A DNA stretch of 64,000 nt from positions 1 to 64,000 of the forward strand of contig VCMS01000172.1 in the NCBI GenBank assembly GCA_022539475.1, in the 5' to 3' direction. This document shows positions 17,835-60,382 of this stretch, piece by piece. A program made the position numbers and the translations under genes. The notes beneath the pieces were generated by a model. That model did not search any database and was not told the DNA's origin. It was given only the letters and a program-made list of their open reading frames with translations. Positions within the stretch are counted from its first letter, which is position 1; each line of letters opens with the position of its first letter. The DNA comes from Gracilaria domingensis (lineage: Eukaryota; Rhodophyta; Florideophyceae; Gracilariales; Gracilariaceae).

Positions 17835-18045
17835 CCCTTTAAAGTAAAGTGATTTGTAATGGATATACTTCAGATGTCCTTGAATTAAATGAAATCGGGA
17901 CTGAATTAGATACCTAAGTGATATGCATAGGATGCTCACTGGATATTCGGAAGATATACTCTAAAGATGTACATTGAATGTACTAAGTATGCTCCTTGAA
18001 TACCCACTAGATGTTCAATAAAGTGTCCTTTGGATGTCCCGGACA
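17835..18045 (+). repeat. Left terminal inverted repeat with degenerate 11-bp array
   Basis: The tip reads CCCTTTAAAG, then GTGATTTG at 17849-17856. From about 17930 to 18040, units of about 11 bp follow one another: GGATGCTCACT, GGATATTCGGA, AGATATACT, AGATGTACATT, GAATGTACTAA, GTATGCTCCTT, GAATACCCACT, AGATGTTCAAT, GGATGTCCCGG. The loose consensus is RGATGTYCAYT. The right end has the same motif on the opposite strand. En/Spm elements carry arrays of 12-bp TnpA-binding sites near their ends, and these may be analogous (inference). Confidence 0.72.
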
Positions 18046-18192
18046 GAGCGTGACGCGTTACATATTGATAAACAATGGATCTACGCTGGATGCGTATTTG
18101 ATTCTTAATTGTAACCAATTAGAAGCGTTCAAAATGACATGTTGTAGATGCCCAAAAGATGAGCTGCGAATGAACGCAGATTTAATTCAAAT

Positions 18193-18302
18193 GGAGCGTT
18201 TTCAACGGATGAACAGAAGAAGATCATTTGCACATCTCGTGCGCATCGATGATGCGCACGAGATGTGCAAATGATCTTTTATTCGTCCATTGAAAATGCT
18301 CC
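18193..18302. repeat. Long hairpin: 26-bp perfect arms with a 3-base loop, extended imperfectly
   Basis: Bases 18222-18247 and 18251-18276 are perfect reverse complements around a GAT loop. The similarity extends outward with a few mismatches to about 18193 and 18302 (GGAGCGTTTTCAACGG against GGAGCATTTTCAATGG). It lies between the left array and the 3' end of the TNP2 gene. It could be a structural end of the transposon, a transcript terminator, or a source of double-stranded RNA; the sequence does not say which. Confidence 0.85.
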
Positions 18303-18661
18303 AGTAGCCTTCATTTCCGCCAATGAAATTGGTAAACTTGTCTCGCTGAGGTGACTTTTTTCATGCTCACATTTAGACCATTTAAAGAGATTACCATGCC
18401 ATTCTGCTTTTCGCTCCCTAGGTTTACCATAATCCACTAGATTGTTCCCTCCAACTTGAGATTTCTGCCACTTCGCAGTTCGAATCTTCGCGGGTCCAGG
18501 AAGTGCCTACGGCCATCATGATCAAGGAATCCTTTGAGGCGGTTGACACATCCAATGTCTTCTACAGATCTTCTTCTGTCTCTTTGTGATCCCCTGCGAA
18601 CACCGCTGTGGAGATGTACTGATGGGATGCCAGTTGTACGGTTGATGACTAATCCGTATTG
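18303..18661. other. No gene seen
   Basis: This stretch lies between the hairpin and the TNP2 stop codon and presumably holds the transposase 3' UTR. I see no motif. Confidence 0.4.
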
Positions 18662-21579
18662 CTAATCGACTCGTACGGCAGACATAGTTGTAGAATGTGT
18701 AATCTGTTCGCCAGGACGTTTGTTATGCACCGAAATCTGCCAGATTTCATTCACACAACCATAGTACACTGTGTACGGATTTTCTATATCGCTTGCGTCA
18801 TTCTCCAGCAAAAAATGTGCTGCCACCCAGCATCTCTGCCTTGCTCTGTAGCCATCATGATCTTCACGTTTTCTCACCTCGCTTAGAGTCTCAATCTTGA
18901 AGGAATCACTTTCTGTAACTACTTCGGCATTGCGAAACGTTTTGAGACTTTTGCGTTCAACGTCAAATGCTGTAATGGGAAGAACTCCATGTGCGAAAGC
19001 GATTGCTTGCTTTTTCCGTCCTTGCCCACCCACTACTACTCCACCTCTGCCACGCAAGCTCACTTCCGACCGCTCGCCGAACAATTCTTCTTCCTCATAA
19101 CCGAATTCGGATTCTTCTTCATTGCGCCGTTCTTCCCCGGCCTGGCCTATTTTCAGATGTCCCTGGGGTTCGCTGTAGCGTGATATACCCATCCCGCTGT
19201 TTAGAAGTCTGAGTGAAAACAGCCTCATGCTTTTGTGGTAAAGGTTTGATTCCGGATGAACCTTAGATTGTATCATTTCTGACACTTCTCCTGCCACTCT
19301 CTCTGTAATGAACTGTGTGACGTTGAAGAGAGGACCCCATTCAAGAATCATCGATGGGAAATGTAGCATTGCGTGGGTGGTGGGAGTGAAGCATGATGGA
19401 TGTCCTCCTCGTCCATTGAATACTCTGTCAAACAACTCATACAACTGCTGCATCATATTACGGAGTGTTTCAACCTCTGATCGTGCCACGGCCGTTGAAA
19501 AGAGTATTTGAGTTATATCGGATGTCAAAGCCCAAAGCTTTGTTATTCTTGGGTCAATTTGTGTTCCGCTGAATACCACTGGACCATAGAAAAGCGCTAG
19601 ACCCTTGAAGTTTACGGCTTTGTAGGCTCCTATATGATGAAAGGATTGCGGTGGCCTGCACCAATCCGAGGGAATACCAATCGACCCATTTGCCAAAGAT
19701 CTGTTGATTTGATTGAAGACAGCTCTAGCGACAGAAATTTCTGGACATTGATTGATAAACGTTTGGTGTGCGCCAATGCACAACGCGTTGAGGTGTTTCA
19801 CCCAGCCAAGAAGTCACTGATGCATTGCATCGTACGGCGAACCTTGCACAACATCGAGTGATAGTTTGGAAATGTACGGCTTTCTCTTGACCCCATTCTT
19901 CTTCTTCAAGTTCTCTAACAGAGATTGGTTTCCAGCGTGACAGGCATCGCGTAGCTGCCTCCATACTCGAACCATTCCCTGCTGAGATCTACTTCCACGA
20001 CACTCTCGTTCGATAAGTTGGCTCATACCATTGACAATGATTCCCCTCTGCGCAAGCTTTCGTTCGCTTTCCCCAAACGCTGGTGTCATGTACAATTTTC
20101 CTACTGAACCTTCTCTGCTCGATCGCTTATGATACTTTCGACAGCCATAAAGGGCGTTATGACCTTTGAAGCCGAGCAGTTTGCTTGCAGCTGGCCAATC
20201 AGCAGTGACAAACACCACGAATGCGTATAGTGTCCTAATAACGCCGTCGGCACAGCGAACTGTAACACCGCTCTCGAGCAGAAGCAGATAGTCTATTATG
20301 GGTTTCAGAAAGATGTCAAAGGCTTCACTGTCGTGTGAGCCAGGAACAAAGGCTGTCAGTAAAACGTTACATGCCTTGAAACGTTGTTGTGGATGTATAT
20401 TAAGAATGACAAATATCAATGGCCACACGGACTTGTTGTTCAGACCACTTCTAAAAAGCTCAAGTCCATCAGAAGAGAAGTTAAGAAATACAACAAGGTC
20501 AGATTCAGGTCTCAGGGTTTCTATCTTGGGTCCGAAAGTACTACGAAAGTATGAGCCATCGTAAAAATCGCGGAGAGTGCCTGGTTCGGGTCCCTTCATA
20601 CTGTTGTGGACGGTCTGGAAGCCCTCAAGAAGACATTCGAAACTCTCCGGCTCCCTACAAAGCGACATTAGCAGTTCGGAGACATAACTGTACCAGAAAC
20701 GGTTTCCCTGCATGACGGTTTCTGAACAACCTGGACTAGGGCACACCACTGACGCATTCGTCACTCCATTTCTTTGAACAGTTGCGTGGCCATGACGACA
20801 CATCAATCCATATCTCTTGGTGATTCCAGACCTATTCTACGCGTCTTGCATTATGGACTCATAGCTGTAGATTGAAGAAACTACTTTCGTTCGAAGAAGC
20901 GCAGTCACATTTCTTTGCGATAGTCCTCCCAACTCGGAGATTTGGAGCACTTCCAGAATTCTCTTCGCCTCAAGCTGCTTTGAATTCTGCTCTTCATGAA
21001 CCTGTATTTTGCAATCGAATATGCTACTCTGTGAGGTCGTACCTGTATATAGGTCTGGCATTCCTATCATGTCTGGGAGTATTGTAGCCTCTTCATTCGG
21101 CAAGTTCTCTTCTCGGTCTGGTGAATATGGAGATTGTGTGACCTCCGTGCCCTGACGAACAGCTACATCCACAGAATCCTCATCTTTTTCAGGCTGTAAT
21201 TCGTTTTGATGCATATTGTTCTCCCCCTGCTGTACAGAATGTTCTCCATCACTCGCACCAGTGGCTTGGGGTTGAAACTCTCCCTCCTCAACTTCTTTCT
21301 GTATTTCCCCGGCATTTTGCTGAAGAAGATTTGTCCCTGCCCGAGGACCACGCGTCTTCTCTTCGTGTGAGGGTGTTGCAGTACGTCGATGTCATTGCTA
21401 CTCTGGAAGAGCATTGAATTGCACAGAGATGCGTTGCAGTCGAAAGACGGAGTTGAGGGTGGTGATTGGTGAGGCCCGATTTGTTCTTCATTCGCCTCGT
21501 GGCGCTGAGCGGTACGCGCTAGTGCCCTCGTCAGAATTCGATTCCTTCGACGCATGTTGAATAACTTACCGTCAAGCAC
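18662..21579 (-). pseudogene. TNP2-type (CACTA/En-Spm, Transposase_21) transposase
   Basis: Core frame 20806-19814 carries the Transposase_21 signature: LVVFLNFSSDGLELF, SVWPLIFVILNIHPQQRFK, NVLLTAFVPGSHD, then FVVFVTADWPAASKLLGFKGHNALYGCRKY. It runs into an in-frame TGA at 19814-19816 within the conserved PYDAMHQ...LLGWVKHL motif and continues in the same frame from 19801 through LHFPSMILEWGPLFNVTQFITERVAG to a TAG at 18662. The acidic N-terminal part lies in 20837-21579 and is split over two overlapping frames (join near 21200), so it has an intron or frameshift. It is the most likely mobiliser of the 28-kb element, but this copy looks inactive unless the TGA is read through. Confidence 0.85.
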
Positions 21580-21950
21580 GCAGAGTTTGGCGCGAATTGT
21601 TGCTGACGGACTTAGAGCATAATTTTACGACCTGAACCCCAGTCGATAGGGAGAGTTTAGTGAGACGGAGAAAAATGGTTGGCATGGAAGAGAGAGAATC
21701 ATGCGCGGATGACTTATCTTTATTCCTTCGCTCGCTTCGCAACGTCTGCCGCCTTTTTCACGCCAAACGAAACTGTAATCATTGATGTCCGTTGCCTTAT
21801 TTAACGACCGTCTGAACCCCCAAGTTCTTCCCAATCCTCTCTTCCCAGTCTGTGGGTTCACACAGTTCAGTACTAGCCATTCACAATTCTTCGTTTCTTT
21901 TCTACCATCACTCAGAGGGTTACGATTAAGTACTCACAACCAGCGCCAAA
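21580..21950. promoter_or_regulatory. Divergent promoter region between TNP2 gene and ORF2
   Basis: The 370-bp gap separates the minus-strand transposase from the plus-strand ORF2. An AT-rich TTATTTAA at about 21795-21802 is a possible TATA element for ORF2. The divergent arrangement is seen; promoter function is inferred. Confidence 0.35.
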
Positions 21951-22801
21951 GTGATGTCGAATTCTCCAGTTGTGCATGAACCACAGTCTGTGGATGAGCT
22001 TCCTGCCGAACGCGTACTAAGCATCCCTACCAGGGCCGAGTCAAGACGTAAAGATAAGCACGGAGTGGAAGGAAGAGGTTCGCAGTACCGAATGCGTCAC
22101 ATTTTTAACTCTAAGATGGCTGTCTTGGAAGGTCGGCCGTTTGAAAAAAACAACCCTATTACTGCTGAATTCGTCTTCTCTGTTCTACGCAGTATCAGAG
22201 ATCATGTGTGCGACGTACGAAAGATCCAAGATGACGGAAGTGTGACCTATCGTTCCCTCCAGAAGGAGCATCCACTTGTGGTGATGGAGCTTCGTTCCAA
22301 GATAGAAAAACACTATACGATCTTGAAGCTTGTGGAAGGACAGTGGGCTGTCAACCTTTTAATCCAAGAAGCGTTTAGGCCCGACCGAAATTATAAGAGT
22401 TCTGCTTCTAGTTCTAATCTTGAAGCTAATTTTGAACAGCGCAATTTGGACATTTCAAGGGCATCACATTTCGAAGAGGGCACAGCAGCCGGAAACGAGT
22501 GTAATCAAGGTACTGGAAGGAACTCTGATCCATCTCGAGGCAGGTCTGACAATATAGGAGAGGATGATGATTTGCAAATCCATCTGAACATGGGAATGTC
22601 AATGAAAATGATTCTGGTACTGCTGTTAACATTGGTCATGACGCAGTTGAAGAGAGTGCCCCAATAGTGTCTGCTGCTCAAAATGGTACTCAGAGAAGTT
22701 CTGTTTCCATAGCCGAGATTGTGAGAAACCGCGTTGGAAGAAAGAGGAGTCAGGGATCTCGTCGCAGTAGAAACGTACCTTCGAAGCGATTCAGAGTCTA
22801 G
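21951..22801 (+). pseudogene. ORF2 of giant transposon, unrecognised, one frameshift
   Basis: The frame opens at ATG 21951 and has a helical, charged core (HIFNSKMAVLEGRPF...TAEFVFSVLRSIRDHVCDV, then MELRSKIEKHYTILKLVEGQWAVNLLIQEAF). In an acidic stretch near 22565 (GATGATGAT) the downstream sense shifts by one base. The other frame then runs FANPSEHGNVNEND... to a strongly basic tail, RKRSQGSRRSRN, ending in TAG at 22801. The basic tail looks like a nuclear localisation or DNA-binding segment. By position it matches the second protein of CACTA elements (TnpA-like), but I recognise no domain. The one-base slip may be an assembly error. Confidence 0.55.
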
Positions 22802-25800
22802 AACAAACCTACTTACTCTTTTTGAGTTGTAGCCACTACAAGGTTACGTTTGACTCCACACTCTGTGGTTCGCTCTCGGTTTCTGTTGTATTCTTGTGTC
22901 TCTCTAGTATCCTTTTTAATGCTTATGATACTCTATGTCCTAATGTCTGTGTTAAATAAAGGGGTGCAAGGCTACATGGGGTAGCTTTGTATCTTGCTGG
23001 GTTTTGTTGTAATTCGAACCTGAAGCATTGATCTATAACTTGTATACTACACGAAATGCAGCGCGTCCACCGACCAGCTGTCCGCGATACAGTACGTGAA
23101 ATGAGATGATTGTGTTTCTCACGGCCTTTGCAGAACTGGAGGTCAGAGGTAAGGGCACAGAAATAGGACCGTCACGTCCAGGTCGTCCAGAATGGCGAAC
23201 TCTGTACCTATCTCCGTCTGATCGGGCATATAATAGAGATTTGCTTTGCATCAGAATTGTGCTTAAGATGTTAGGATTCGATGAAGGCAGAACCTTTTAA
23301 ACTTTCGTCTTTCTGCCTCTCCCGTGAATGGGGAACAAACGTGTGTAACGATGCGATCCGGAGAAGTTTTAGACAGTTCTTTGTTGTAGACCGTCACTAC
23401 AGCACTTCTAATCGACGCGTTAGTCCGTCAAGGAGCGTCAGCTGTTCGGGTAGCTCACCCTATCTCATTTACCAGGCGTGTGAGAGCCGCGGTATGTCCG
23501 TGTAGGACGTACTGCTGTGAAAAAGTACGTGTGCAAAATTGCATATGTGAATTTTATTCAGCCATTGACGACGAATGGAATTATTGGAATCCGTGGAGGA
23601 TTCTTTGCGACTATTCTGCGCCGAGCGGGAGTCGCGGGCAAAACCATAATAAAAGCTCTAGGCCGAACGCCAAGAGCTACCGACGGAGAAGAAGATTAAG
23701 CTCCGGAGGTGTGCCCTATTCTTCGCCTTGCACTCTACCGCTACAAACCAGCATACCCCTTCCTTTTACTTTTGATCCTTTCCTTCTCTACCAGACCCGT
23801 CAACATTCTTGCAAGGATGTTTTTGCATTTGTTGCCTACCCTACATTAAAGCTTGTATATCTCGGAATCATCCTGGGCTGTATTGCTATTTTCTCGATTA
23901 GAGTGACCTCTGTTTGCGAGCATTTACCGTATGACCAGAAATTTTTGGCGTCTCGTTATTGGGTGGGGAACTGATTGCCAGTGGTGTTGAGTCTGTCAAA
24001 GGATTTGACGTGGACCTCAAGTTTGAACTTAAGAGCCCAGTTTGTGTACGTTTCGCACTGAGTCGGCCTTGGAGATGAGCTTGAAAGAAGAGCGCTTCAT
24101 CTGGAGGGGATGGAATACGAGGTTGAAAAAAAACGCTGTGTACACGAAGTGCGGGACGCCGCAATGGCAGCGCATGCAACGAAAGACAGTGGTGCAGAAA
24201 AAGGCGGATGAGCGAGGATGGACGAGTCTCTAAAACGCGGCATGGCGGGAGTAGGGTGAAAAGCAGTGGAGCGGGCGGTGCGTGTGCGGAGAGAAAAGAT
24301 GAAAGCTTTCGGACGTGGGTTATGATGATGCACGCATGGTTGGAACCCGTTCAGAACGGCCCATGGGACATCTATGCCGCGCACTGCGCAAGATCGCGTC
24401 TCGAGGCCTGGCCCAGAAGCTCCCGTATTTTCGCATTTTGAGCTCTGGATCAGGCACGAAGGCGTTCTGCAAACGAGTAGTGAGGGCGCCTACGTTTACA
24501 GTTGACGTGTACCGTTGGCAGTGCCAACTTGGCACTGCGACATTCGCTAATGGCCTTTGCAGCCGAGGCGGCCGTGTATCTGCATGTTGACCGGAGCTCC
24601 CGTGTGCTGCGCGAGGAGCGAAGAGCGAGACGGACGAGGCCAGGTGTGATTCGCCGCCGCTGAAAACGGCGGCTGAAAGTTCCAGGCTGGAACTAGTCGC
24701 CGGATCTGGACTGGACGGCGTCGCTTCATCTAGTGCATATTTCGAGCCCCGGCGACGCGCGCAGTATAGTCCGGGCAACGATGGCGCGGGAAAAGTGGTA
24801 ATTTCAAACTCTGCCTCAGCGTTGAGCATTTGCGGTTGTCATTGCTCGCTCTGCATCTTCCTGCTTCGTGCACAACTCCGTGCTATTTCGGCGGAGCCGC
24901 AAATCTCCACTTCACCTGCAATGGAAGACGTCAGCGGGTCGTAAGCTTTGTGCTCGTGGCAGCATCCACTCCAACTACCCACCGCTTTGCAAGACACATA
25001 CACCTCGGAAAGTGGTGGAAAACCGGTCATGGAGGGCGCCACTTCCTTGCTGGGTACGGTTACACTGCCCCGGAGCAGTGTAAGAACTTAAATTACCCCG
25101 CAGCACTGTAAATAGACGCAGGGGCCATATAAGGGTTATGTTACCCCTCAAATAGAGAAAGAAGTTGATTAACCGTATCTCAAGAAGCTTTACTGAAAGC
25201 AAGACAAAACGCGCACTCTTTATCTCTTTTATGCTTTTTTCTACCTATACTGCTTATCTGCCCTCTATCGAAAAGTTAAGGCAACATATAATGCTAAAAC
25301 AATTTACAGAATCCAACACATGTATCAAGTTCACGAGCTTTAGTGGTAGAGACCTAACAACAATGCTGTTAAAGAATAATAAGAGTGTTTTGGCTTCATC
25401 CGTGTTCTTTCTTCTCAAAACACTTTTTTTCTAAACTTCTGCTTGTGGCGCAAGAATTTTAGAGTTGAATAGGATAGTTAAGATAGAAAATCGTCAAGAT
25501 CGTAATGATTTGTCAGTCTTTAGGAGGTACAATGTACCCCGGATGGGTTCGATGTTGAGATTATAGCAGGCAGGCTCTAATGCAAAGCAATACGAGGCCT
25601 AAACAATGATAGAAGACGAGCAATTCTGGGGCATAGTGCTCCCCAAATGTTATTGACATTCAGTGTCGTGCTCGACGACATGCGCTGGTTCACTGGCGGA
25701 GCCATTGAGAACGACATCCGCCACAGCCACAACCGAGACAGGATTATCTAAGACACAGGAGTATCTAGGATTCAGCAACGGTACACCTGTCTAGTTTCCA

Positions 25801-26650
25801 GCGGTGCACTCTCCAGCGAGAGATATGCTGAAATCCCCTCACACTCTGCGCCGTGTTCCAGGACGACGGCTGGTGAGCTCCCTGCTCTCCTGCCGCCATC
25901 GTCCAACACGGCCGTCAACTGCGCCTCCAGTGTATGCGCCGTTGACGAAGGCATCATCCACGACCGCCGCTGACGCAGAAGGCCTCAGCATTCGTGGTAG
26001 ATAGGTGCACTTTGGTGGATGGTGCCGTCCAACGTCGTGGGGATCTATGTCTTACACCGTAATAGATACGCGCGGGGGGACGCCAAAAGATCAACTAACT
26101 TTGCACTGTGACAGAATGTATCTAGGTATCTGTAGACACGTGCATCGATTCGCAGACTCACCTGGTATCTGCGCTGGTGAAAGATTACTTGTAGCCATAC
26201 ACGGGCACACTACAGTGGCGCTGGAACCTCTCAGGTTCTTTTCAGCCCCCACGGCACTTAGTTAGGGCATTAATTGATACTACACTGCTGGTCTTGATGG
26301 CCCGATTTTCACGCATTCTGGACGATGATTAATCCCTTGCCCTAAGAAGCGGCTTCAGTCAGAAGCACGTGAACAGCACGCACAAGTGCTTGGGATGGCG
26401 CCGTGGCACGCTTGTCGAACTGTTATGCTCGAGGAGCGAAGTCTTTTGTGTTCCTTCAGGCTAGGACCACGCCGGCAACCAACTGAGAGTGGGAAATCTT
26501 CTTCGACCTTAATAATTCTCAAGCTTTTACTTGCTTTAAGGAGAACTCCCCCCTTCAGCGTTCCCTACCTTGATCGAAAACTTCGATAATCCTAATCGTT
26601 TCACTATTAGAAAGAGAAAACAGCTCAAGGAAGTTTGGTACAGTAGGAAA
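22802..26650. other. 3.8 kb without a recognisable gene
   Basis: Many short overlapping ORFs occur on both strands, none with a motif I know. A plus-strand frame at 23517-23699 ends in a basic then acidic tail (IKALGRTPRATDGEED) but is only 60 codons. The stretch around 25139-25605 may be a solo LTR remnant (see separate entry). Confidence 0.4.
25593..25609. repeat. 17-bp match to the outer end of the Gypsy-1 5' LTR
   Basis: CGAGGCCTAAACAATGA occurs here and at 8201-8217, spanning the end of the Gypsy-1 5' LTR. It suggests the end of a related LTR inside the giant element, possibly 25139-25605 (TGTTACCCCTC...CCTAAACA). I see no target duplication and no wider similarity. Confidence 0.3.
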
Positions 26651-34067: not shown

Positions 34068-34298
34068 GCAAGTTCGTTCTGTACGATTAGTTAGTATCTT
34101 GTCAAATGTGAATGAAAATCTTTACAAGTTGAATCGCGCCATTAGTTAAGAACAAAGTTAAGAAGTCGTTCGTCTTGGCCTAGAGACCAGAGTGATTTCA
34201 GCCGATTCACCCATATCTGCATGCTGCGCAACCTCTGTCCCGCCGCAGCTCATCGTAGATTCGGCCGCAGCCATTGAAAACGTGCAGTATCCCTGATA

Positions 34299-35580: not shown

Positions 35581-35844
35581 TGTAACAGGATCGAGAGATC
35601 TGTCTGTAGAAGTGCCAAATGGGCCAGGGACTGTTGAAAGTCGCTGGTGACTGCTTCCCTCCTTCCTCAGAAGGTCAAAGCAAGTCTGGCTCCTTTATTT
35701 ATAGTCTTGCTTGTCGGTTCTCTACAAACGACAAACGTCCCACCAGTGACATTCATCAGAGCAAGATGCTCTGTGACGAGCACTGTGAAGGACGAAGGTG
35801 ACGATAAAGGAGACAGTAGCTCCTTGTGTTACTATTGCGTTACA
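35581..35844 (-). repeat. 3' LTR of Gypsy-3
   Basis: 264 bp, TGTAAC...GTTACA, identical by eye to 40729-40992. It contains on the minus strand CTATAAATAAAGG (around 35693-35703), a TATA box overlapping a possible AATAAA polyadenylation signal. Confidence 0.97.
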
Positions 35845-35872
35845 CTCGCCCCTTCTTTCGCTGAAGATGTCC

Positions 35873-38800
35873 TCATCGAAGCGTGTGTTTTAGAAAGGCT
35901 GCGACTGCTTCTTTGCAGTTTGACAAAGCCGTTCTCGGCAACCATACTGCATCATCGCGGGACTCACCTGCAAACTGCACCAGGTAGAAAACACGGCGGT
36001 TAAACGTCTTGCGGGCAATTACTTCTGCCACTTCTTGTTCCACGGAGCCGTCATTGTCAATCACAACGTCCAACGGGCCCTTGTTGTCGTTGTGATAATG
36101 ACGGAGCTTCGAAACGTGAAAGACGTTATGCGCACGGCGCATGTTGGGAGGCAGCTCAATGCGGTAGGTGACTGGTCCGAGCCTTTCACGAATGGTAAAG
36201 GGGCCAATAAAGCGTGGCTGCCACTTCTTTGGCAATGTGGAGCGGCGAGTCAGTGATAGGTTATCTGCGCGGAGGAGAACCAGAGACCCCGGTTCGAAAG
36301 AAACATCTCGACGAGATCGGTCGGCGTGGTACTTCTGCGTCGCAATTGCGTTTGCGAGGTGTTCGCGAGCTAGAGTAGCCATAGCGTTTCGGTGTTCTAT
36401 ATAATCGATGGCAGCTTGTGATCGATCAGAACAGTGTTCCAAGGAGCGAGTCATAGCCGTATGCGGAATGTACCCGAGTGCGACCTCAAAAGGGGACAGA
36501 CGGGTGCTCGCGTGTCGTGCTGAATTGTACTCGAACTCCAAAGTTGGAAGTATTCTATCCCATGACTTGGGAGATGCTTGCACACAGGAACGGAGCATGG
36601 CCGAGAGTGTTCGAATCATATTCTCTGACTGGCCGTCGGTCTGCGGGTGATCGGTAGAGGATGTGTTATTGCGCACGTTCAGGATCTGAGTGAGGGATTG
36701 CCAGAAGCGGGATGCGACCTTTGGATCGCGGTCTGAGACAAGGGTGTGTGGAACTCCGTGCTTGGAGTAGAGATGGGAGTCGAATAGACGAGCGGTGTCC
36801 TGTGCGGTGGCCGTTTTTCTCGTCGGAATAAATATCGCCATCTTCGAGAGCTTGTCAACCATGACCAAAATGGTATCGAACGCATTGTCGGAAGTTGGTA
36901 GCTCGGTGAGAAAGTCGAACGTAACCACCTCCCAGCAACGGTTAGGTATCGGTAGCGGTTGGAGAAGCCCTTGTGGGGGATGATTTGATGCCTTGTTGCT
37001 CTGGCATTCGCGACAGTTGCGCACATATTTTAGAATATCTCGATACATACGTGGCCAATATACACTTCGCGATGCCGAAAAGTATGTCTTGTCGGCGCCA
37101 ATGTGACCAACTCCGTGGAAGTATTGCGTGAGGTCGTCACGAATATCGCCGGCGGGGATGTAGAGGCGCAGTGAGCCCGTGCCTCTCCAGAAGATAAGAC
37201 CGTTGACAAGTGATAAATTCGTGACGATGCGATGTGCGTACGCGGAGGACGGGCCAGATGTTGTAGAGGAGTCAGACAAGACCTCACGAGCCAAGCGATC
37301 TTCATCGTAGACTGCCCTGACGCGCTGGTGTAGATTAGGAAATGTCGCAGTCAGCGAGTGCAGCTGCGGAGGAACATGATCAGGGCGGCGGCTGAGGGCG
37401 TCGGGGACTATGTTGCGTCTGCCAGGGACGTGGATGACGTCGAAACTATGTTCTTGGATTTCATCAAGCCACCGACACTGTCGCCCTGTAAGCTTCGGTT
37501 TGGACTGAAGGTAACGGATGGGGTCGTGATCGGTCTGGAGCAGGAAGCGACGACCACGGAGATATGGGCCCCACACGCGCAGGGCGATCATGACAGCAAG
37601 GAGCTCCTGATCGCCGGTATCCCAATTGTTTTCGGCGGGTGACAATCGGTGTGACAGATACGCGACGGGATGTCCGTCTTGCGACAGCGTGGCGCCAACA
37701 GCGTGCTTGGAAGCGTCTGTGGCAAGCACGAACTGTTTCGACGGATCAGGATGGGCCAAGACGGGTGCGGAAGTTAGGGCTGCCTTGATTCGGTCGAAGG
37801 CCGACTGCTGCGTAGGCTTCCACTCGAAATGATGTGAGCGGAGCAAGTCGGTCAACGGCTGTATGATTGCAGCGTATCCCTGCACGAAGCGGCGATAAAA
37901 GTTCGTAAGACGAACAAATTGTTGGATGTGCTTCAGCGTAGACGGAATAGGCCATTCGCGGACAGAACGGACGAGTCGATCCTGAGCGGAGACTCCTTTG
38001 TCCGATACTGTAAAGCCCAGAAATTCCACTTCGCGAACGCCGAACACACATTTGCTGAGCTTCGCGTAGAGACGGTGTTTTCGTAAGGCGAAAAGCATCT
38101 CACGTAGATGACGTTTGTGCTCCTCGACGGACTTGCTGTAGATTAGAACGTCGTCGATGTAGAGCACGAGACATTCTCCATTCAGATGACGGAGGGCTGA
38201 TGCAATGAGGCGAGAGAAGGCAGCCGGGGCGTTGCAGAGCCCGAAGCAGAGCACACGCCATTCGAAGGAACCGAAGCGCGTTCTGATGGCGGTCTTGTGG
38301 CAGTCCTCCTCCTTGATTCGCATTTGGTGATATGCGCCTACAAGGTCAATCTGAGAGAAGATGGTAGAGCCTGCGACCTGATCCAGAGCCTCATCGATTA
38401 GCGGTAGAGGCGTGGCGTCTGGAATCGTTATGCGATTGAGTGCACGGTAGTCGCATACGAGGCGCAGCTGTCCAGACTTCTTTCGAACGAAAAAGACTGG
38501 AGCTCCGAACGGTGACGATGACGGTCGAATGAGTCCTTTCCGAAGGAGCTCTTCCAAGGTGTTGCGGAGCATGTTGAGCTCTTCATGTGAGAGCCTGATC
38601 ACAGGACGCACAGGTGGTGGTTGTCCTGGAAGTAGGTTGATTTCGAAATCGTGTTCTCGCTGAGGAGGGAGTTCCGCCGGTAGTTCTTCTTTAAATACGT
38701 CCGCGAATTCGTCGACGATTGGTGCCAGCTCGGTGTGGCATTCGACGGACGAGGAAGGAGCAGAGGGAGGCTGCAAACGGAGTGCGTACAGTTCGCAGCT

Positions 38801-39424
38801 CTGCTGTTTCACAAGGCGACGGAGACGTTTGTACGTAATGGTGGGCACCGTTGGCTTCATTGCAGTCTTCGCGGATGCAGTCTGGGAGCGAGGTAGCACT
38901 TTCATGAGACAACCATCAGCGCGCCTGATGGTTAGGCTATACGCCTTCCAGTCGACATTCGGGCAAACTGTGCGAAGCCATTGGCGACCGACAGTGATGA
39001 GGGGCAGTCCGTTGTCTGAATCGTTCATGTCGATGACGTATACGGAGACGGGGACTGACTCATCCAGTAGAGAAATTGATGTTCGTGCCTGGTAGAGGAT
39101 GGGCACGAAAGAGTTGTTGCCAAGTTCGGTATGAGAGAATTCGGGGGGCTCGAGAAGGAGATTGCACTTTCGTGCAGTGTTCGGAGAGACAAAGGCATGA
39201 GACGCTCCGGGATCCAAATGGAATGCCACTGTGTGTCCATTGAGCGAGCCTGAGTAGATCATCTCGCCGACCGGTTCAGTGTCGATGGCAGAGAGACGAA
39301 TGGGCCATCGAGCACTGCGTGAGACCGCACAGGTGTGCGGCAGGCTTAGTTTTTTGCACGATTGCGCTGGTGAGCCGAGGCGCCAGCCACCGTCGTGCGA
39401 CAGGGGTGACCTGGGTCGCTCCAC
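35873..39424 (-). CDS. pol: Gypsy-3 Pol, up to 1183 aa
   Basis: The true Pol begins by -1 frameshifting at about 39350. Domains in order: protease with DPGAS in place of the usual DTG/DSG; RT (PFGAPVFFVRKKSGQLRLVCDYR shortened: key FVRKKSG, CDYRALNRIT, catalytic VLYIDDVLIYSKS); RNase H (VLATDASKHAVGATLS, TGDQELLAVMIAL); integrase with HHCC zinc finger (HGVGHIGADKT...CRECQ) and DDE residues in VTFDFLTEL, LVSDRDPKV and TDGQSENMIRTL; and a C-terminal chromodomain (EVAEVIARKTFNRRVFYLVQ). It ends in TGA. No lesion is visible, so it may be active. Confidence 0.95.
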   Translation of the reverse strand: MERPRSPLSHDGGWRLGSPAQSCKKLSLPHTCAVSRSARWPIRLSAIDTEPVGEMIYSGSLNGHTVAFHLDPGASHAFVSPNTARKCNLLLEPPEFSHTELGNNSFVPILYQARTSISLLDESVPVSVYVIDMNDSDNGLPLITVGRQWLRTVCPNVDWKAYSLTIRRADGCLMKVLPRSQTASAKTAMKPTVPTITYKRLRRLVKQQSCELYALRLQPPSAPSSSVECHTELAPIVDEFADVFKEELPAELPPQREHDFEINLLPGQPPPVRPVIRLSHEELNMLRNTLEELLRKGLIRPSSSPFGAPVFFVRKKSGQLRLVCDYRALNRITIPDATPLPLIDEALDQVAGSTIFSQIDLVGAYHQMRIKEEDCHKTAIRTRFGSFEWRVLCFGLCNAPAAFSRLIASALRHLNGECLVLYIDDVLIYSKSVEEHKRHLREMLFALRKHRLYAKLSKCVFGVREVEFLGFTVSDKGVSAQDRLVRSVREWPIPSTLKHIQQFVRLTNFYRRFVQGYAAIIQPLTDLLRSHHFEWKPTQQSAFDRIKAALTSAPVLAHPDPSKQFVLATDASKHAVGATLSQDGHPVAYLSHRLSPAENNWDTGDQELLAVMIALRVWGPYLRGRRFLLQTDHDPIRYLQSKPKLTGRQCRWLDEIQEHSFDVIHVPGRRNIVPDALSRRPDHVPPQLHSLTATFPNLHQRVRAVYDEDRLAREVLSDSSTTSGPSSAYAHRIVTNLSLVNGLIFWRGTGSLRLYIPAGDIRDDLTQYFHGVGHIGADKTYFSASRSVYWPRMYRDILKYVRNCRECQSNKASNHPPQGLLQPLPIPNRCWEVVTFDFLTELPTSDNAFDTILVMVDKLSKMAIFIPTRKTATAQDTARLFDSHLYSKHGVPHTLVSDRDPKVASRFWQSLTQILNVRNNTSSTDHPQTDGQSENMIRTLSAMLRSCVQASPKSWDRILPTLEFEYNSARHASTRLSPFEVALGYIPHTAMTRSLEHCSDRSQAAIDYIEHRNAMATLAREHLANAIATQKYHADRSRRDVSFEPGSLVLLRADNLSLTRRSTLPKKWQPRFIGPFTIRERLGPVTYRIELPPNMRRAHNVFHVSKLRHYHNDNKGPLDVVIDNDGSVEQEVAEVIARKTFNRRVFYLVQFAGESRDDAVWLPRTALSNCKEAVAAFLKHTLR

Positions 39425-40656
39425 GGACCCTTACCACATTTCATGCAGCGGTCGTGTGCCCTGTAGATGGTGTTCTCCAGCGAGTTGCGGGGGTCAGCGG
39501 GACCCCAACACTCAACAGAAAGATCCTTCCCAATGATAGAGGGGTCCGTCTGCCTGGAGGACTTCGACGAGCGGTCTTTCCCCTTTCCATGCCGATTCTT
39601 CGAGGAAGAGCCCTCGGAGTTGTCGCTCCACTTCTCGGAGATGTATAGAGTTCGCACAAAATTGTATACATCGGACATGTGAGCGGGGTTTCCATCCGGG
39701 AAACGGACAGAGAGCTTCTTCTTGAACAGAAGTGGAAGGCTGAGCTGGAAGAATGTGAATGCCTCAGTGACAGGGGTGTCACATATGTCTACCAACTCAC
39801 GGAATTTGGTGATATGCTTCTCAAGAGGACCATCCTTATACTTCAGGCGGATCAGGTTGACACGAGCCGAAGCTTTCTCGTTTGCAGGGACGAATTCGCT
39901 CAGCATGGCTTCCTGTAACTCGTCGAGATTATCGAAGAAATGTCCCTCACGAGTCAATCTGCTGAACCAACTGTCTGCATTGTCTTTAAGTAGACACGTT
40001 GCCACATGGACCTCCTGAGCTGCGCTGACCGTAGGGCAGAGACCGGTCACTTTGCGAATCCCAGAAATGAAGGAACGGACCTTGATTGAAGTTCGCTCAC
40101 TGTCTTGACCGTGATATGACGAGAAGTTTGCAGACTTCAGTACCTGCAGCATTGACGTAGTAGTATCTGAGGAAACCGGGGCTGGGGCTGGAAATTGCTG
40201 CGGAAGATTAGCAGGGGCAGAAGGGGCGATACGGTCGCTCGGTTGTTGTAGAGGCTCTGAAGTAGGCTGCGGAGGATGCGGTGGCGAAAGTTCAAGTCGA
40301 GACTGAAGGGCTTGGATCTGGGAGACAACCATCGACATAGTCTGCTGCTGCTCTTGTATCATTGCCAAGAGAACTTCGGCGTGCGGAACTACAGTGCCTT
40401 GGTTGGGATTCGAGTCGACTTGAGCGGTATTTCCAGAGGTAAGTGCTGGGGACGTGTTCTGGAAGGGCGCGGGCGGGACAGAAGGCTGAGTGCCGGCTGG
40501 GCCGGAATGCGGCGGAGAAGTCGGACCTGGGGAGGCGTGGACGGGGTGCGGCGATGGCTGTGCATTAGACTGAACCGAATGAACACCGGAACTTCGAGAA
40601 GACGGGGCGGGTGTAGTAACGCGCTTCCCCAACTTTGATTGACAAGCCAAGGGCAT
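39346..40656 (-). CDS. gag: Gypsy-3 Gag, 436 aa
   Basis: The N-terminal third is Pro/Ser/Gln-rich. The retrotransposon gag domain is at about residues 195-330 (VATCLLKDNADSWFSRLTREG, then EKHITKFRELVDIC). A single zinc knuckle CMKCGKGPWSDPGHPC is at about 405-420. The frame ends in TAA (39346-39348) directly after a slippery heptamer. Start ATG 40656 lies 73 bases inside the 5' LTR. Confidence 0.93.
   Translation of the reverse strand: MPLACQSKLGKRVTTPAPSSRSSGVHSVQSNAQPSPHPVHASPGPTSPPHSGPAGTQPSVPPAPFQNTSPALTSGNTAQVDSNPNQGTVVPHAEVLLAMIQEQQQTMSMVVSQIQALQSRLELSPPHPPQPTSEPLQQPSDRIAPSAPANLPQQFPAPAPVSSDTTTSMLQVLKSANFSSYHGQDSERTSIKVRSFISGIRKVTGLCPTVSAAQEVHVATCLLKDNADSWFSRLTREGHFFDNLDELQEAMLSEFVPANEKASARVNLIRLKYKDGPLEKHITKFRELVDICDTPVTEAFTFFQLSLPLLFKKKLSVRFPDGNPAHMSDVYNFVRTLYISEKWSDNSEGSSSKNRHGKGKDRSSKSSRQTDPSIIGKDLSVECWGPADPRNSLENTIYRAHDRCMKCGKGPWSDPGHPCRTTVAGASAHQRNRAKN
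39349..39355 (-). promoter_or_regulatory. Programmed -1 frameshift site between gag and pol
   Basis: On the minus strand the gag frame ends GC-A-AAA-AAC-TAA. A AAA AAC is the canonical X XXY YYZ slippery heptamer in the correct register, immediately before the gag stop. Pol is open in the -1 frame through this site (CKKLSLPHT). Slippage would produce Gag-Pol. The downstream stimulatory structure was not worked out. Confidence 0.8.
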
Positions 40657-40713
40657 CCTGGATGAAGCAGTGGGACGGACCCAACGAGTTGTTCCAGCGG
40701 TGAGGAACGTAGA

Positions 40714-40726
40714 GTAGATGCTACCA
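40714..40726 (-). promoter_or_regulatory. Primer-binding site of Gypsy-3
   Basis: On the minus strand TGGTAGCATCTAC starts two bases after the 5' LTR. The TGGTAGC start resembles the site used with initiator tRNA-Met by yeast Ty elements, but later bases differ, so the tRNA is uncertain. Confidence 0.6.
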
Positions 40727-40728
40727 AT

Positions 40729-40992
40729 TGTAACAGGATCGAGAGATCTGTCTGTAGAAGTGCCAAATGGGCCAGGGACTGTTGAAAGTCGCTGGTGACT
40801 GCTTCCCTCCTTCCTCAGAAGGTCAAAGCAAGTCTGGCTCCTTTATTTATAGTCTTGCTTGTCGGTTCTCTACAAACGACAAACGTCCCACCAGTGACAT
40901 TCATCAGAGCAAGATGCTCTGTGACGAGCACTGTGAAGGACGAAGGTGACGATAAAGGAGACAGTAGCTCCTTGTGTTACTATTGCGTTACA
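40729..40992 (-). repeat. 5' LTR and promoter of Gypsy-3
   Basis: 264 bp, partner of 35581-35844. On the minus strand TATAAATAAAG at 40841-40851 is the probable core promoter for the genomic transcript. Confidence 0.97.
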
Positions 40993-41275
40993 CTGAATAA
41001 TGCCGATAATACCCGGTGCACAGACGAACAAGGACAGTGTTGAGATCCATTGGGCATGGAATCGTCACACAATAATCAGGGGCAAACGCAAGAGATATGG
41101 TTGTTTCTAACCACAACCGCTGAGCTCTCAAGTCTGATTCACTCTGCTTCATCCCTTCCAGTTCTCTTGCAATGGCAGGGAACAAACAAGGCTCCACTGT
41201 GGACGCTTTGAATGCGCTTCCATAGTGGTGGTGCACACTCTTTGACCCTTCTAGCAAATCAAGTGGTTCCAACTC
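40993..41275 (-). pseudogene. BRWD/PHIP-like: bromodomain, N-terminal half
   Basis: The frame reads DYCVTIPCPMDLNTVLVRLCTGYYRHYS, the ZA-loop PMDL and helix A of a bromodomain (acetyl-lysine reader). It is broken by Gypsy-3 after Ser. Joining 40993 to 35575 and keeping one CTGAA gives an in-frame continuation, AFCFDLMLLKNNA. Confidence 0.85.
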
Positions 41276-41905
41276 TCATGGAGACACAAGATCCAAATTT
41301 TCTTTCTCCCGACCACTTTCATTATCGTATTCAACTTCGATCGAATTCCACATAGTGGTACGAAGAGTTGACTTCACAGATATCACCTTGCCCGTATAAT
41401 ACTGCCATGCCTTGTCCTCGTGTAAGAAAAGAATCCGAAAAGGGTCCAAAGGTTTCCATGTACGGCTCAGAGCAGCAATAACTCGGTTAGTCAAAACAAG
41501 GTATTCAGGAACATCAACAGGAAAATATGAAAGAACAAAGGCAGCTGATTGCCCAGAGCGCCGCCGTGGAGGAGATAACAGTTGCAGCGTGAGGATCACT
41601 TTTGTCTTCGGCTTCACAACACTTCCATCTGGTTGTCTTTTCCCACCTCTTCTAGAACCTACACTTCTCCCTTTGGGCGCAAGAAGTGTCGGAAAGTCAA
41701 ACTGCAGGTCCACAACATGGAAATGAAGAAGCACTTCGTCCTTCGCCAACAAATTTCCGTCGAGAACTTCTAATCCCTTCTTTTTGTAGTCCGCTCTTTC
41801 CAACTGCGGATCTTAACCGGAAGACCTTGACACCTCCATCGCTTTTAAATGGCCTCCAGGGAAATACATTACATCATCTCCAAGCGGTGGAACGTATGTA
41901 TATGG
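41276..41905 (-). pseudogene. BRWD/PHIP-like: cryptic Tudor segment
   Basis: The frame reads YVPPLGDDVMYFPGGHLKAMEV, matching the start of the PHIP cryptic Tudor domain. After an in-frame TAA it continues with VILTLQLLSP, DVPEYLVL and AWQYYTGKVISV...VEYDNESG. It stops at a TGA (41276-41278) standing exactly where the family has Trp in SPW-x-x-EP (here LVSP, stop, ELEPLD). A TGG-to-TGA change is the simplest cause. The frame then runs on into the bromodomain. Confidence 0.75.
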
Positions 41906-42218
41906 CGTTTAAGTTGACCTTAGCCATGTCGAAGCTTCCAAAGACTTGATGCCATTTTCTGGTGCCCCAGCTACCCGCTCTTTACACAACATAAGGTCCT
42001 CGCTCTTTGACTTTCTTCTGGTGGGTCTCATTCGCAGACCAGAAGCTCTCCTGGGGTCCATTGTTAGAGTTGGGTGAGCTCTGGTTTGCGAGAGGTGTCG
42101 GCCTCTTGTAACTCGTACATCTGTATTGTACTTGTGTGGACGCGTTGTACGCTCTGCGCATATGCGTATCATGACAGTACAGCGATGAACTGTGCTCACC
42201 TCCTTAGGACTCGGGCGC

Positions 42219-43423
42219 TCACCATCGCTTTCGCCCGCGTCCGCAATTGGACTCAGCGACAATATGACGTTCTACAAATGTGCATAAATACCCCCCCGGT
42301 TTGGCTCGGACGGTGACCAAGAGGAGGAAAAACACACAGACGTCAGCCGAAGCACTACCGCCGCGTAGTAAATCAATTCTGTTTACATTGTTCTGTCCCC
42401 TGTCGTCCCCATTTTCCATTTCCATCCTCTTGTTATAACGTTTGTCAGGGTCGCCGCTGGAATAACATTCATTGCTATTTTCCGATGATTGCCTCCGTCT
42501 CCTGTTCTTGTGATATCGCTCATTGCGTTGTGCCTCCAAAATCTTATGTTCTCGCTGCGCAACTTCGTCTATGTCAACCACATGATCAAATTTCTCTATC
42601 GGATCGCCATTACTGACACCATTTCTTGTTCTTTCACGCCGTTGTCGCCGTGTAAGGCGAGCTGGGAAGTCTGATAGTACGCTCTTGTCATTCCTTTCAG
42701 TTTTGTTGGCATTCCGTACCTCCGAGTCTTTGATATCACAGTGGGGAGAACCTTCCACAAAAGAACGATTTTGCATTTGCTCTTGAGGGAAAGTTCGGCT
42801 CCGTGAATCCGGATGTGGAATTGAAGGCCGTGGCCGGAAACAGCTAGCACTATCTCCTTGATGGTCTTCAATAGGTTTAAACACAGCCTCATTGGCTCCC
42901 GTCTTGTCGACTCTTTCGCTCGTAAAAGAAGGATTATGTGGAACTTTGGACACCACGTTACCACCAGCTTCTGTTTGATTGACGCGTCAGTAGCATGATC
43001 CAACGCTTTGAGACCCTCTCAAATGGGTTCGTTCTTGACGTAACGCCCCTGTGTGTGACTCTGCTGCGTAATCTATGGCTCGAAGACGGTGGCTATCTCC
43101 TGACCCTCCTAATCGCGTTTGAGAAGGGGCGATTCCAGTGCATGTACGCATTCTTCTTTTTCAATTTTGAGCAGATGCACCGATGAGCACTGGTGCAGAA
43201 CTCAAATTCCACAGGGCTCCTCGAAGTGAATGGGAATCTCCATTCTGTGGAGAGCTCTGCAACTCCTCATCACCTTCAGGCCGTTTACGAAACGCAGGAC
43301 GTCCTTCCGGTTTTTCTGTCTCTCCAGTAACGTGAAATACTGGTCCTTGCTCATCATTGAGGTTAGAATCACCAGTATGACCCACATTACTGAAAACTTC
43401 AGACCCACATCTTTTGCTACCCA
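42219..43423 (-). pseudogene. BRWD/PHIP-like: charged linker, domain not recognised
   Basis: Frames 43427-43161 and 42956-42219 are Arg/Glu/Asn-rich (RRQRRERTRNG, KILEAQRNERYHKNRRRRQ) with no fold I can name. They lie between the acidic tract and the Tudor segment, so they are probably linker. The junctions between the frames are not clean. Confidence 0.4.
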
Positions 43424-44182
43424 TCAAATCCCCTCATTTGGAGAATGCAAAACGTCCTTTCTACCGCCCTGAGAAGACGCACGTCGCTTTCGCATTGTTC
43501 TTCGTGATTGAGGTCTAACGCATTCTGAGGACTCGTTTCTGCTCTCATTCGTAGAAGTTCTTCGCCTTTTCCTACGCACTGGTCGCATCTCAAATTCTTC
43601 TTCATTCTCTTCATCGTCATGCATTCATTCATCAGCATCATCGTCATCATCATCGTCGTCAGAAGAGGAAGACGAGTCAGAGTCATCAGACAGGTAGGCA
43701 TCGCCGTCAAAATCTTCATCCGAGTCCTCGTACTCCGAATCAGGGGCTTCAAAATCGCGGAGCGGGACGCCCACAACACCATCCGCTCTCTCAAGGGCAA
43801 CTCGTTCTCGCTTCATAATCATTCGTCTTCGCGTATTCCTCGCTTCTCTCAGCAACCTCTTCTCTTCTTTCCCCTGGTTCTCTCGAAACTCCTTTGCGCG
43901 CTTCAATAACGCATCGCAGTTAGGATCCCGGGCATAGTTCGTTGACTTAAACGTGACAGACGGTTGCTGAGCAGTATTCTCCGCCTTGTCTCGAACATTA
44001 CCCAGCTGCAACCAAATCTGAGGTGCGTTAGGCTGTAGCTCTGGAGGATGTGGTCGCAGCTCTTTGTGTTGAGATCTATCGCTAGATCGGCACTGATCCC
44101 GCAGTGGGACTAGGCAGAAACAGCACAGTCCGGTGTCGCGGCCTGCGGGTGGGCTGTTCGGACGGACGTAGCTGAGACGCAC
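43424..44182 (-). pseudogene. BRWD/PHIP-like: acidic and basic middle region
   Basis: One frame runs through charged helices (LLKRAKEFRENQGKEEKRLLREARNT shortened here: the segment is Arg/Glu-rich), then a long Asp/Ser/Glu tract around 43740-43630. It meets an in-frame TGA at 43625-43627 and continues in the same frame with HDDEENEEEFEMRPVRRKRRR to 43424. Such acidic and then basic stretches lie between WD40 and bromodomains in this family. Upstream at 44150-44290 are imperfect duplications of ACTTACGGCCCTGCG. Confidence 0.6.
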
Positions 44183-44499
44183 AGTGGCGGCCCGCCGGTG
44201 GGCTGCATGTGCAACGCAACTTACGGCCCTGCGGGGAGCTGCGTCGCGTTTGCGGACTTACGGCCCTGCGTAGGGCTGCGTCGCGCTCGGTCAAAGACCG
44301 TCGTAAAGCTGTCGTTTACTGAGTAGGTAGATTGAATACGATAGCATAGTGACCACTAGACTAAACAGGACTTCTACCGATTCAGATCTAAGTACTACTG
44401 CGCCGGCGGCGGCGGCGGCGGCTAGCGCGACCGTCGACAACGGCGCATACAGCGCTTTAGCCGCCGTCGTCGAACACGGCGCAGGATGTCTGGAGTCCC

Positions 44500-45512
44500 C
44501 TCCATCCTTGACAATCGACACTTTGTCACATAATCTCCCCCTCGGCGCTAAGTGAAGCAGAACATCTGTGTTTTCATCTAATGCGCACTGCTGTGCATCC
44601 CTTCGAAACGGTGTACAATCATTAGCAAAGAATTGCTCCTCCGGGGCGAGTGCTGTTGCTTCACCTGAGTCGATGCCAAACAAGTTGATTGCTCCTGAAG
44701 TGTCCGCAGTCACAAAGCTCAAACCATCCGCTGAGAACTGGCCATCGATGATTTTCGGCGCTTTCACGGGCACAGGTAGACCAACGTTAGATGGCTCCGG
44801 TACGATCTGCTCCGCAATCGAGAACGAGCGCAGCTTGGCGCCCGTCTCAACATCCCACAAACTGTCTTGGCCGTCGTACCCACGAGAAAGCAGTATGCGC
44901 CCATTCAGCGGGTGGCAATCCATGAACGTAGATTTCTTCCTCATGGGCATGCAACACACGTGCAAGCTCAGCCGTATCGGCATACCATACGCGAATCTTG
45001 GTATCCGACGTAGCGGTGAAGACATAGCGGTCGTCATGTGACCAAAGCACGGCACACACGAACACTGGAAACACAGGACGGCGCATTCTCGGTACAATAC
45101 TCCCGCACGCTGAACCCGACGCTGCACCACTGAGCATGCTTGGAGCATCCGCCTGTATTTGAGAGCGAAAGTCAATAACCTTATAGCTCCAAGAACCCAT
45201 ACCTTCGACAGATGCAGCTCTGCCGCGCGCAGGAGGGAGTCTAGCTTCCGTGCGGTTCCATATTCTGGCAGTGCCGTCTCGACAAGCGGTGATTCTAGTG
45301 CTCCCATTTCGGGAGAACAGCACTTGGCTAATGAGCTCTAAATGTACCCGCAACGATGTGAGCAGGCGCACGCGCGGGGGCACAGAGTCTTCGGTTTGTG
45401 GCTTGTCAATTGCATAAACTTGCGCAGTGCAATCCATACCGCTGACAGCTAAGCGCGTTGCACCCGCATTAAAGCATACTCTGAGCACTTGGTAGGTGGT
45501 AGGGCTGCTCAC
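44500..45512 (-). pseudogene. BRWD/PHIP-like: WD40 repeats
   Basis: Repeats read CFNAGATRLAVSGMDCTAQVYAI, then SQVLFSRNGSTRITACRDGTARIW, then LWSHDDRYVFTATSDTKIRVWYADTAEL, and after a one-base frame change near 44930, HPLNGRILLSRGYDGQDSLWDV and GQFSADGLSFVTADTSGAINLFG. The following EEQFFANDCTPFRRDAQQCALDENT matches the post-WD40 signature of PHIP proteins. The beta-propeller is incomplete: only about the last five blades are present, and the DNA upstream (45513-45829) is low complexity. Confidence 0.85.
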
Positions 45513-45829
45513 CTTGCTTTATGCCGCGCCCTTTCGAAGAAGTTCAGCAGATTCTGCGAGAAGCGGCGAAAACGCGCCAGCAGCAGAAGGCTGTGAAAGG
45601 GCAGCACCGTGCACCAACACAGCAGCGGCGGGGACGGCGGCAGAAGGAGATGAGGCAGAAACCAGCAGCGGAGAGGGTGGGGCGGCGGCGGATGTAGCAA
45701 CAGCGTGCGCATTCCACGGCGTGTCGGGCGCGGAACGAGACTGAAAACAGGTGGCCTAGCCAACCAGAAGCGGAAGCTTCCGCTTTCATTTTCTGAGCTT
45801 TCAGAATCAAGGCGTTATTGGGACATCAA
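45513..45829. other. GC-rich low-complexity DNA upstream of BRWD fragment
   Basis: GCAGC/GGCGG-rich sequence with no WD40 signal on the minus strand. It may encode a loop between blades or mark the capture breakpoint before the right array. Confidence 0.35.
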
Positions 45830-46030
45830 TGTAGCCGTGACCGTAGATGTGCTGTTCTGGGAAGGTCATGAAACATCAATCACGTGTCCTAAGGACATCT
45901 GGACATCATCTAAATTTTTAGCATAATTTTTGGTGCGTCTATCGAGCATCAGCGGCATATTCAGTTGCACTTCCACTCATCCGGTGCATATCCGTAGGAC
46001 ATCCACCGCAAATCACCTCATCTCACTGGG
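45830..46030 (-). repeat. Right terminal inverted repeat with degenerate 11-bp array
   Basis: On the minus strand the tip reads CCCAGTGAGA, then GTGATTTG, then contiguous 11-bp units: GGATGTCCTAC (46004-45994), GGATATGCACC (45993-45983), GGATGAGTGGA (45982-45972). Looser units follow down to about 45932 and again around 45870-45915 (GATGTCCTTAG, GATGTTTCATG). About two-thirds of the first 44 bases match the left tip, with most differences being transitions. Confidence 0.72.
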
Positions 46031-46033
46031 TAG
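46031..46033. other. Right target-site duplication TAG
   Basis: This is the partner of 17832-17834; both are part of one CTA in the minus-strand Gypsy-2 integrase frame. Confidence 0.75.
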
Positions 46034-60253: not shown

Positions 60254-60382
60254 GGCTTTGAGAATATTCCATAGTTTGTGTCCTTCGGTCTGCGGTTCCA
60301 GACCTGATACCAGTTGTTGCCATTTTTCTCGCTTCAGGCGATCGATACAGCGGGATGTTTGACTCTTGGTTTGCAGTCATCT

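Follow-up and report, generated by a model that had tools for sequence, protein, structure and literature searches.

Background

Transposons of the CACTA/EnSpm type are described as ending in CACTA...TAGTG or CAC...GTG (PMC4158355, PMC12730594) and as carrying subterminal arrays of short units of 10-20 bp (PMC8978399). CACTA elements that hold captured fragments of host genes are on record (PMC8978399), as are the Pack-CACTA (PMC8903248, PMC13317346), which are marked by host coding DNA and the lack of a transposase gene. The nearest printed lead for the present element is the description of enlarged En/Spm families, 16-20 kb long with 4-5 ORFs, in the red alga Chondrus crispus (PMC6431247). 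A literature search for Gracilaria domingensis together with transposable element or CACTA found no paper in the collection searched.

The element considered here lies in a window (the whole stretch of DNA analysed, 64,000 nucleotides, C172:1-64000) of the 77.9-Mb G. domingensis assembly; it spans positions 17835-46030 (~28.2 kb) and sits inside a Gypsy-2 integrase gene. It shares with CACTA/EnSpm a TNP2 domain (PF02992), a second ORF, a 3-bp target duplication and subterminal arrays of short units, here with a period of 11, and it is unlike the printed CACTA/EnSpm forms in its tips, which read CCC...GGG (PMC4158355, PMC12730594). An earlier note on this DNA had already remarked that CCC tips are foreign to standard CACTA elements; they recur in every relative whose tip was compared (window, C362, C118, C85, C57, C246). 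The element would work in the manner of a CACTA transposon; because its tips depart from the CAC rule, we call it CACTA-like, a variant, and do not file it as a member. In common with the Chondrus families, which are known here by description only, it is EnSpm-type, red-algal and above the usual size (PMC6431247); the excess in the present element is made up of nested inserts and a captured block. It resembles the gene-capturing CACTA elements and Pack-CACTA in having host genic DNA between CACTA-type ends (PMC8978399, PMC8903248, PMC13317346), the host coding DNA in this case being a block from contig C89. Unlike those elements, it retains its transposase gene, as a TNP2 remnant; the captured block is ~7.6 kb long and includes three adjacent genes in part; and the middle of that block has apparently been overwritten from the donor.

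Taken as a whole, the locus is very probably a TNP2-bearing, CACTA-like, CCC-tipped element that captured the C89 block, had the middle of that block converted and was later invaded by nested inserts. What recommends it for attention is a red-algal CACTA-like lineage with unusual tips, exact ends and a sequence of events that can be put in order.

An insertion with exact ends

The features at the two junctions are:
17832..17834, no strand: left target-site duplication, TAG (sequence and flank searches)
17835..17856, + strand: left terminal inverted repeat with CCC tip (tip sequence comparison)
17857..18080, + strand: left subterminal array of degenerate ~11-bp units (lag-11 self-similarity)
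45840..46008, - strand: right subterminal array of degenerate ~11-bp units (lag-11 self-similarity)
46009..46030, - strand: right terminal inverted repeat with CCC tip (tip sequence comparison)
46031..46033, no strand: right target-site duplication, TAG (sequence and flank searches)

The TAG triplets that had been reported on either side are in place. Their standing as a duplication comes from empty sites: two 800-base flanks were searched separately in the assembly (40 of 43 candidates scored for one flank, giving 40 matches; 36 of 36 candidates scored for the other), and 14 of the 40 right-flank matches are abutted by a left-flank match, with exactly 3 bases shared in each case (C130, C202, C17, C21, C259, C211, C16, C9, C27, C66, C398, C69, C43 and C187). 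A further eight Gypsy-2 copies (one each on C41, C112, C390, C312, C205 and C217, and a pair on C208) would agree with the 3-base overlap once unaligned flank bases are extrapolated, and were left uncounted; C179, with a 1-base overlap, was also left out, and one of the 40 right-flank matches is the window itself. The empty sites are unoccupied paralogous copies of Gypsy-2 in the same genome, the uninterrupted Gypsy-2 that the earlier note had named as a sign of mobility. They fix the boundaries to the base and confirm the insertion as a real mobile element with exact ends.

The restored integrase frame reported earlier carries less weight. Removal of 17835-46033 does leave a 420-aa frame that runs from 47042 until it meets a stop at 17581, but joins shifted by 1 or 2 bases still give 379/380 or 345/346 aa; since shifted joins also leave long frames, the restoration stands as a fact and, taken alone, is weak evidence for the ends.

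Tips, subterminal arrays and other copies

The window tips read CCCTTTAAAGTAAAGTGATTTG from 17835 and CCCAGTGAGATGAGGTGATTTG from 46030 on the reverse strand, mirror images of each other as had been described. Behind them, lag 11 is the top lag at both ends (self-similarity 0.408 and 0.380, p 0.0005 each, 2000 shuffles) and survives correction for the best lag between 5 and 39 (p 0.002 and 0.010, 500 shuffles), while two control stretches lack the periodicity (p 0.61 and 0.56). Other ends of the same type show it too: p is 0.0005 at C362, 0.0010 at C118, 0.0010 at C85 and C57, and 0.0005 at a short element on C255; the signal is weaker at C246 (p 0.0115), and with best-lag correction the values become 0.050 for C118 and 0.138 for C246.

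Both ends recur elsewhere in the genome, a search for further copies with the same tips being a check that the earlier note had proposed. The left end is found at C362:34814-50916 (94-97% identical, tip CCCAGTAAAGTAAAG), where alignment to the window reaches window position 43452 and then runs into an assembly gap; the right end is found at C118:146142-149563 (95-96% identical, tip CCCAGTGAGATGAAATGG), which holds the right part of the element only. No complete second copy was found among the sequences read. Since ~1.3 kb of the captured block shows no difference between C118 and C362, and a Gypsy insertion sits at one and the same site in both, these contigs may hold two pieces of a single copy. 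The shared insertion occupies C362:44621-49612 and C118 from 149564 and belongs to a stretch of 5,666 bases with 99.97% identity; that stretch would represent either a single locus that was assembled twice or a pair of recent daughters.

More distant relatives at C85:96343, C57:159648 and C246:24387 show the same succession of left tip, TNP2 and ORF2, with flanks that are all different. C85 and C57 stop aligning beyond ORF2, and right ends of the three relatives were not found in the stretches examined. (A side observation on C85: past ORF2, at C85:102687-104075, there is an ORF for an N6/N4 DNA methylase, PF01555, E 1.4e-14, which may or may not lie inside that relative.)

Tips of the element's type, the CCCWGTGARRTRAARTGAT-type class, are common in the genome: a 19-base tip pattern with at most 1 mismatch finds 83 sites, as against 1 for the reversed pattern, and a 22-base pattern with at most 3 mismatches finds 107, as against 0 for the control (100 listed); the patterns were derived from tips already seen, and both counts include those tips. 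The CCCTGTGAGATAAAGTGATGCG subtype accounts for most of the matches among those listed. The literal motif of the earlier note, CCC-N11-GTGATTTG, was dropped as a genome-wide tip signature (51 matches against 9 for the reversed control); its count lends the tips no support because many of the 30 matches read sit inside other repeats and have the same flanks.

Matching triplets were sought and not found at the outer flanks of the C362/C118 pair (TCG vs CTT) or beside the paired tips on C255, C50 and C202; these mismatches confine the demonstration of a 3-bp duplication to the window copy. The tip pairs on C255 (454 bp), C50 and C202 had been candidates for complete short copies and were ruled out by their differing flanking triplets.

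The left subterminal region also holds a near-palindrome of ~112 bases (window 18192-18303 and C362:35171-35279). At its edge, C362 has ~156 extra bases that are 75% like window 53666-53829.

The element's own genes

Two genes belong to the element proper:
18662..21391, - strand: TNP2-type transposase gene (Pfam PF02992, E 4.4e-15)
21930..22667, + strand: ORF2, second element gene (matches found alongside the transposase in C85, C57 and C246)

The TNP2-type transposase that had been placed inside the element is there, at 55.9 bits against a cut-off of 28.6. The window gene is apparently broken, consisting of three open pieces in one frame with stops between them, and the nearest five transposases (window, C362, C85, C57, C246) all look broken at least in part, introns being possible. 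A candidate C(2)C motif, read by eye, is CRKC in C85 and C246, CRKY in the window and CRKW in C362. ORF2 measures 328 aa in C362, where a Pfam search gave no match. A genome search with TNP2, in which 92 of 296 candidates were scored, yielded 94 matches; 17 of these are stop-free and lie in open frames of at least 1,000 aa. On the window's own contig and outside the window, a second and distant TNP2 match (33%) without internal stops lies at C172:96644-97909.

Nested insertions account for most of the size

Five inserts interrupt the element:
23382..23805, no strand: solo LTR, target duplication TTCTT (absent site; matches paired repeats ~5.1 kb apart on C96 and C155)
25052..33483, - strand: MULE encoding a MULE transposase and an Ulp1 protease, with tips GGGTACGG and 10-bp target duplication CTTCCTTGCT (Pfam, absent site)
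35581..40992, - strand: Gypsy retrotransposon with identical LTRs, target duplication CTGAA (Pfam, LTR comparison, absent site)
42062..42420, no strand: LTR-like repeat, target duplication TCCAT (missing from C362, C118 and C89)
44067..44520, no strand: solo LTR, target duplication CTTTG (missing from C118 and C89)

Is this, then, a giant transposon? The earlier note had read it as one of ~28 kb, with MULE transposase, Ulp1 protease and host genes all moving together as cargo, and in the window copy all of these parts do lie between the tips. As an account of the original state the reading is scarcely credible any longer, and sites without the inserts refute it: each of the five is absent at its exact site in at least one of C362, C118 and C89, each has its own target duplication, and the LTRs of the nested Gypsy are identical. 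Together they amount to ~15.1 of the 28.2 kb, so that the size is mostly nesting; by coordinate arithmetic the element without them is ~13.1 kb.

The supposed Mutator-like transposase and Tudor-Ulp1 protease cargo turns out to be one nested MULE of 8.4 kb, in which both PF10551 and PF02902 are matched. That it is a separate element and not cargo follows from its own 10-bp duplication, its presence with the same two edges at five other sites (C17, C137, C21, C191 and C326, 97-99%), and a closest database relative of its protein, P0001 (1,376 aa), that carries both the MULE and the Ulp1 domains. (Two details of this MULE: the copies on C21 and C191 are in two abutting pieces, and the one on C326 is split by ~4.7 kb; the SWIM match in the protein falls just below the Pfam cut-off, 19.0 vs 19.6 bits, and a Tudor-like stretch between the two domains is a reading from the sequence.) MULEs with Ulp1-like proteases are known as the KI-MULE type. 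The nested part, which combines a MULE transposase and an Ulp1 peptidase and has its own terminal inverted repeats, a long target duplication and other copies, is of that kind; the CACTA-like element that hosts it is not. The general caution is that a "giant" element read from a single copy may be nesting.

A captured block of host chromosome

What the element does carry is, by sequence comparison, a copied stretch of host chromosome with parts of three genes:
23111..45740, no strand: captured chromosomal block, donor C89:46875-54521 (collinearity; interrupted by nested inserts)
23111..23925, - strand, edges approximate: 5' part of the NT-C2 (PF10358) gene, diverged, with stops in the host frame, split by the solo LTR at 23382-23805
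33494..34064, + strand: the greater part of a small host ORF without a Pfam match; the nested MULE lies within its first eight codons
34161..45740, - strand: BRWD/PHIP-like fragment that reaches from the WD40 repeats through the bromodomain to the C-terminus and lacks the N-terminal part; an interrupted pseudogene

The donor stretch (7.6 kb) is uninterrupted on C89 and collinear with the part of the element between ORF2 and the last 290 bases. Its genes are, in order, the NT-C2 gene, a 222-aa ORF on the opposite strand (C89:48420-49085; no match in a Pfam search) and a BRWD/PHIP-like gene, in which a single frame, open over 2,073 aa or more, encodes both WD40 repeats and a bromodomain, and whose protein is 100% identical to the G. 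domingensis bromodomain protein P0005. The name BRWD/PHIP-like is given on the strength of domain order and of a Gracilariopsis chorda relative annotated "Bromodomain and WD repeat-containing". Searching with window 41000-46030 gave 49 matches (40 of 102 candidates scored); among these the BRWD part occurs only at C89, C118, C362 and the window itself, the remainder being LTR-like repeats.

The captured chromatin-reader gene of the earlier note is therefore captured, with C89 as its donor, and is broken in all three element sequences: stops at host-frame codons number 8 in the window, 5 in C362 and 7 in C118 (1,769, 1,156 and 1,033 stop-free codons compared). Copy-to-copy dN/dS for BRWD is 0.99 between window and C362 and 1.68 between window and C118. 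These stops and ratios rule out a functional BRWD cargo. The small ORF, which the element has in its entirety, is open in C362 and split by the MULE in the window, its frame being open in both copies that cover it; over 203 codons the window and C362 differ by 3 synonymous and 5 nonsynonymous changes, too few to judge selection. If the "TatB-like ORF" once listed among the element's genes is the 222-aa ORF, it belongs to the captured chromosomal block instead.

Divergence from the donor proceeds in steps

Why should the middle of the block be so much closer to its donor than the edges are? At sites where both element copies agree and C89 differs (shared differences), four blocks can be distinguished, with breaks at C89 48097, 49924 and 54168: 237/1044, 132/1818, 66/4231 and 48/354, or 22.7, 7.3, 1.6 and 13.6%. 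The blocks differ in this rate (chi-square p 3e-141), and the largest log-likelihood gain is 186, where 200 shuffles gave no more than 7.8. Copy-specific differences in the same blocks number 31, 48, 164 and 8 (2.3-3.9%), a rate that varies only slightly among them (p 0.043).

The best account of this pattern is an old capture that was later overwritten in its middle part, probably by gene conversion templated by the host gene. Because both copies share the pattern, the overwriting would predate their separation. A host-to-element direction is suggested by the intact host frame and by the host's ordinary distance to its relatives: in the BRWD centre, identity of the host to P0007 about equals that of P0006 to P0007 (66.4 and 66.7%).

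Differing selective constraint along the block, acting alone, would be another account, and second codon positions are indeed most conserved in the centre. It is nevertheless very improbable. Synonymous sites step too, which makes selection on proteins an unlikely cause: differences at fourfold-degenerate sites fall from 12/34 in NT-C2 through 6/93 in the small ORF and 11/128 at the BRWD 3' end to 23/638 in the centre, rising to 9/61 at the right edge of BRWD, and the window-C89 synonymous divergence is 0.54 for NT-C2, 0.12 for the small ORF and 0.09 -> 0.06 -> 0.04 along BRWD from its 3' end. The window-C362 dN/dS for BRWD, near unity, likewise speaks against constraint. The least certain step is the one between the 7.3% and 1.6% blocks, where second codon positions change ~fivefold (6.1 and 4.9% vs 1.0%) and fourfold sites ~twofold; it is partly a matter of protein constraint.

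A comparison of host and element alone gives no direction, and the host locus might itself be the mosaic, through introgression or through an element that converted the host gene. An open BRWD frame of at least 2,073 aa, a centre as near to P0007 as P0006 is, and the host-frame stops in all three element sequences make this distinctly improbable, if somewhat less so than constraint alone. Serial capture has more to be said for it: the block would have come first from an older or sister-lineage allele, and later gap-repair or template-switching would have re-copied the middle from the host. The three breaks, with near-constant copy-specific rates across them, would suit such a history. It is hard to tell from gene conversion, both being host-templated copying into the element, and no donor besides C89 appears among the matches (40 of 102 candidates scored); we consider it unlikely, though the least so of these alternatives. 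Gene conversion after an old capture is the reading carried forward here.

Literature on conversion between transposon cargo and a parental gene was not found among papers judged by titles and the starts of abstracts, and the term "gene conversion" does not occur in PMC13317346 and PMC8903248.

A proposed history

The 7.6-kb host block would have been captured long ago and placed between the two genes of the element on one side and its right end on the other. Ectopic gene conversion, in a single round or in two, would then have replaced the centre of the block (the small ORF and the greater part of BRWD) with host-gene sequence before the present copies separated, with older sequence left at both edges. 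By analogy with CACTA biology, the 11-bp subterminal arrays would be bound by the transposase, perhaps together with ORF2, and the cuts would fall at the CCC tips; insertion would generate a 3-bp duplication, and one copy would in this way have entered the Gypsy-2 integrase gene. Since the transposase copies seen look broken, transposase would have to be supplied in trans by intact relatives; the 17 long-frame TNP2 proteins are candidate suppliers, their recognition of these ends being putative. The MULE, the Gypsy element and the three LTR-like repeats would have inserted later, expanding the element from ~13.1 to 28.2 kb.

A transposon has, in short, picked up pieces of three neighbouring genes in one block, and the steps in divergence seem to preserve a natural trace of cargo being re-copied from a host template. 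One can go further, and at long odds, and imagine that the element re-copies the chromatin-reader block time and again, with the living host gene as template, and that the cargo thereby stays donor-like without a working BRWD; by virtue of its sequence identity such a cargo might influence the host BRWD, perhaps by way of small RNAs or as a silencing decoy that protects the element.

The surroundings of the insertion hold further retroelement remnants: window 1870-5029 has pieces of a Gypsy-type integrase and reverse transcriptase, and window 57708-60376 holds pieces of reverse transcriptase and RNase H that look LINE-like.
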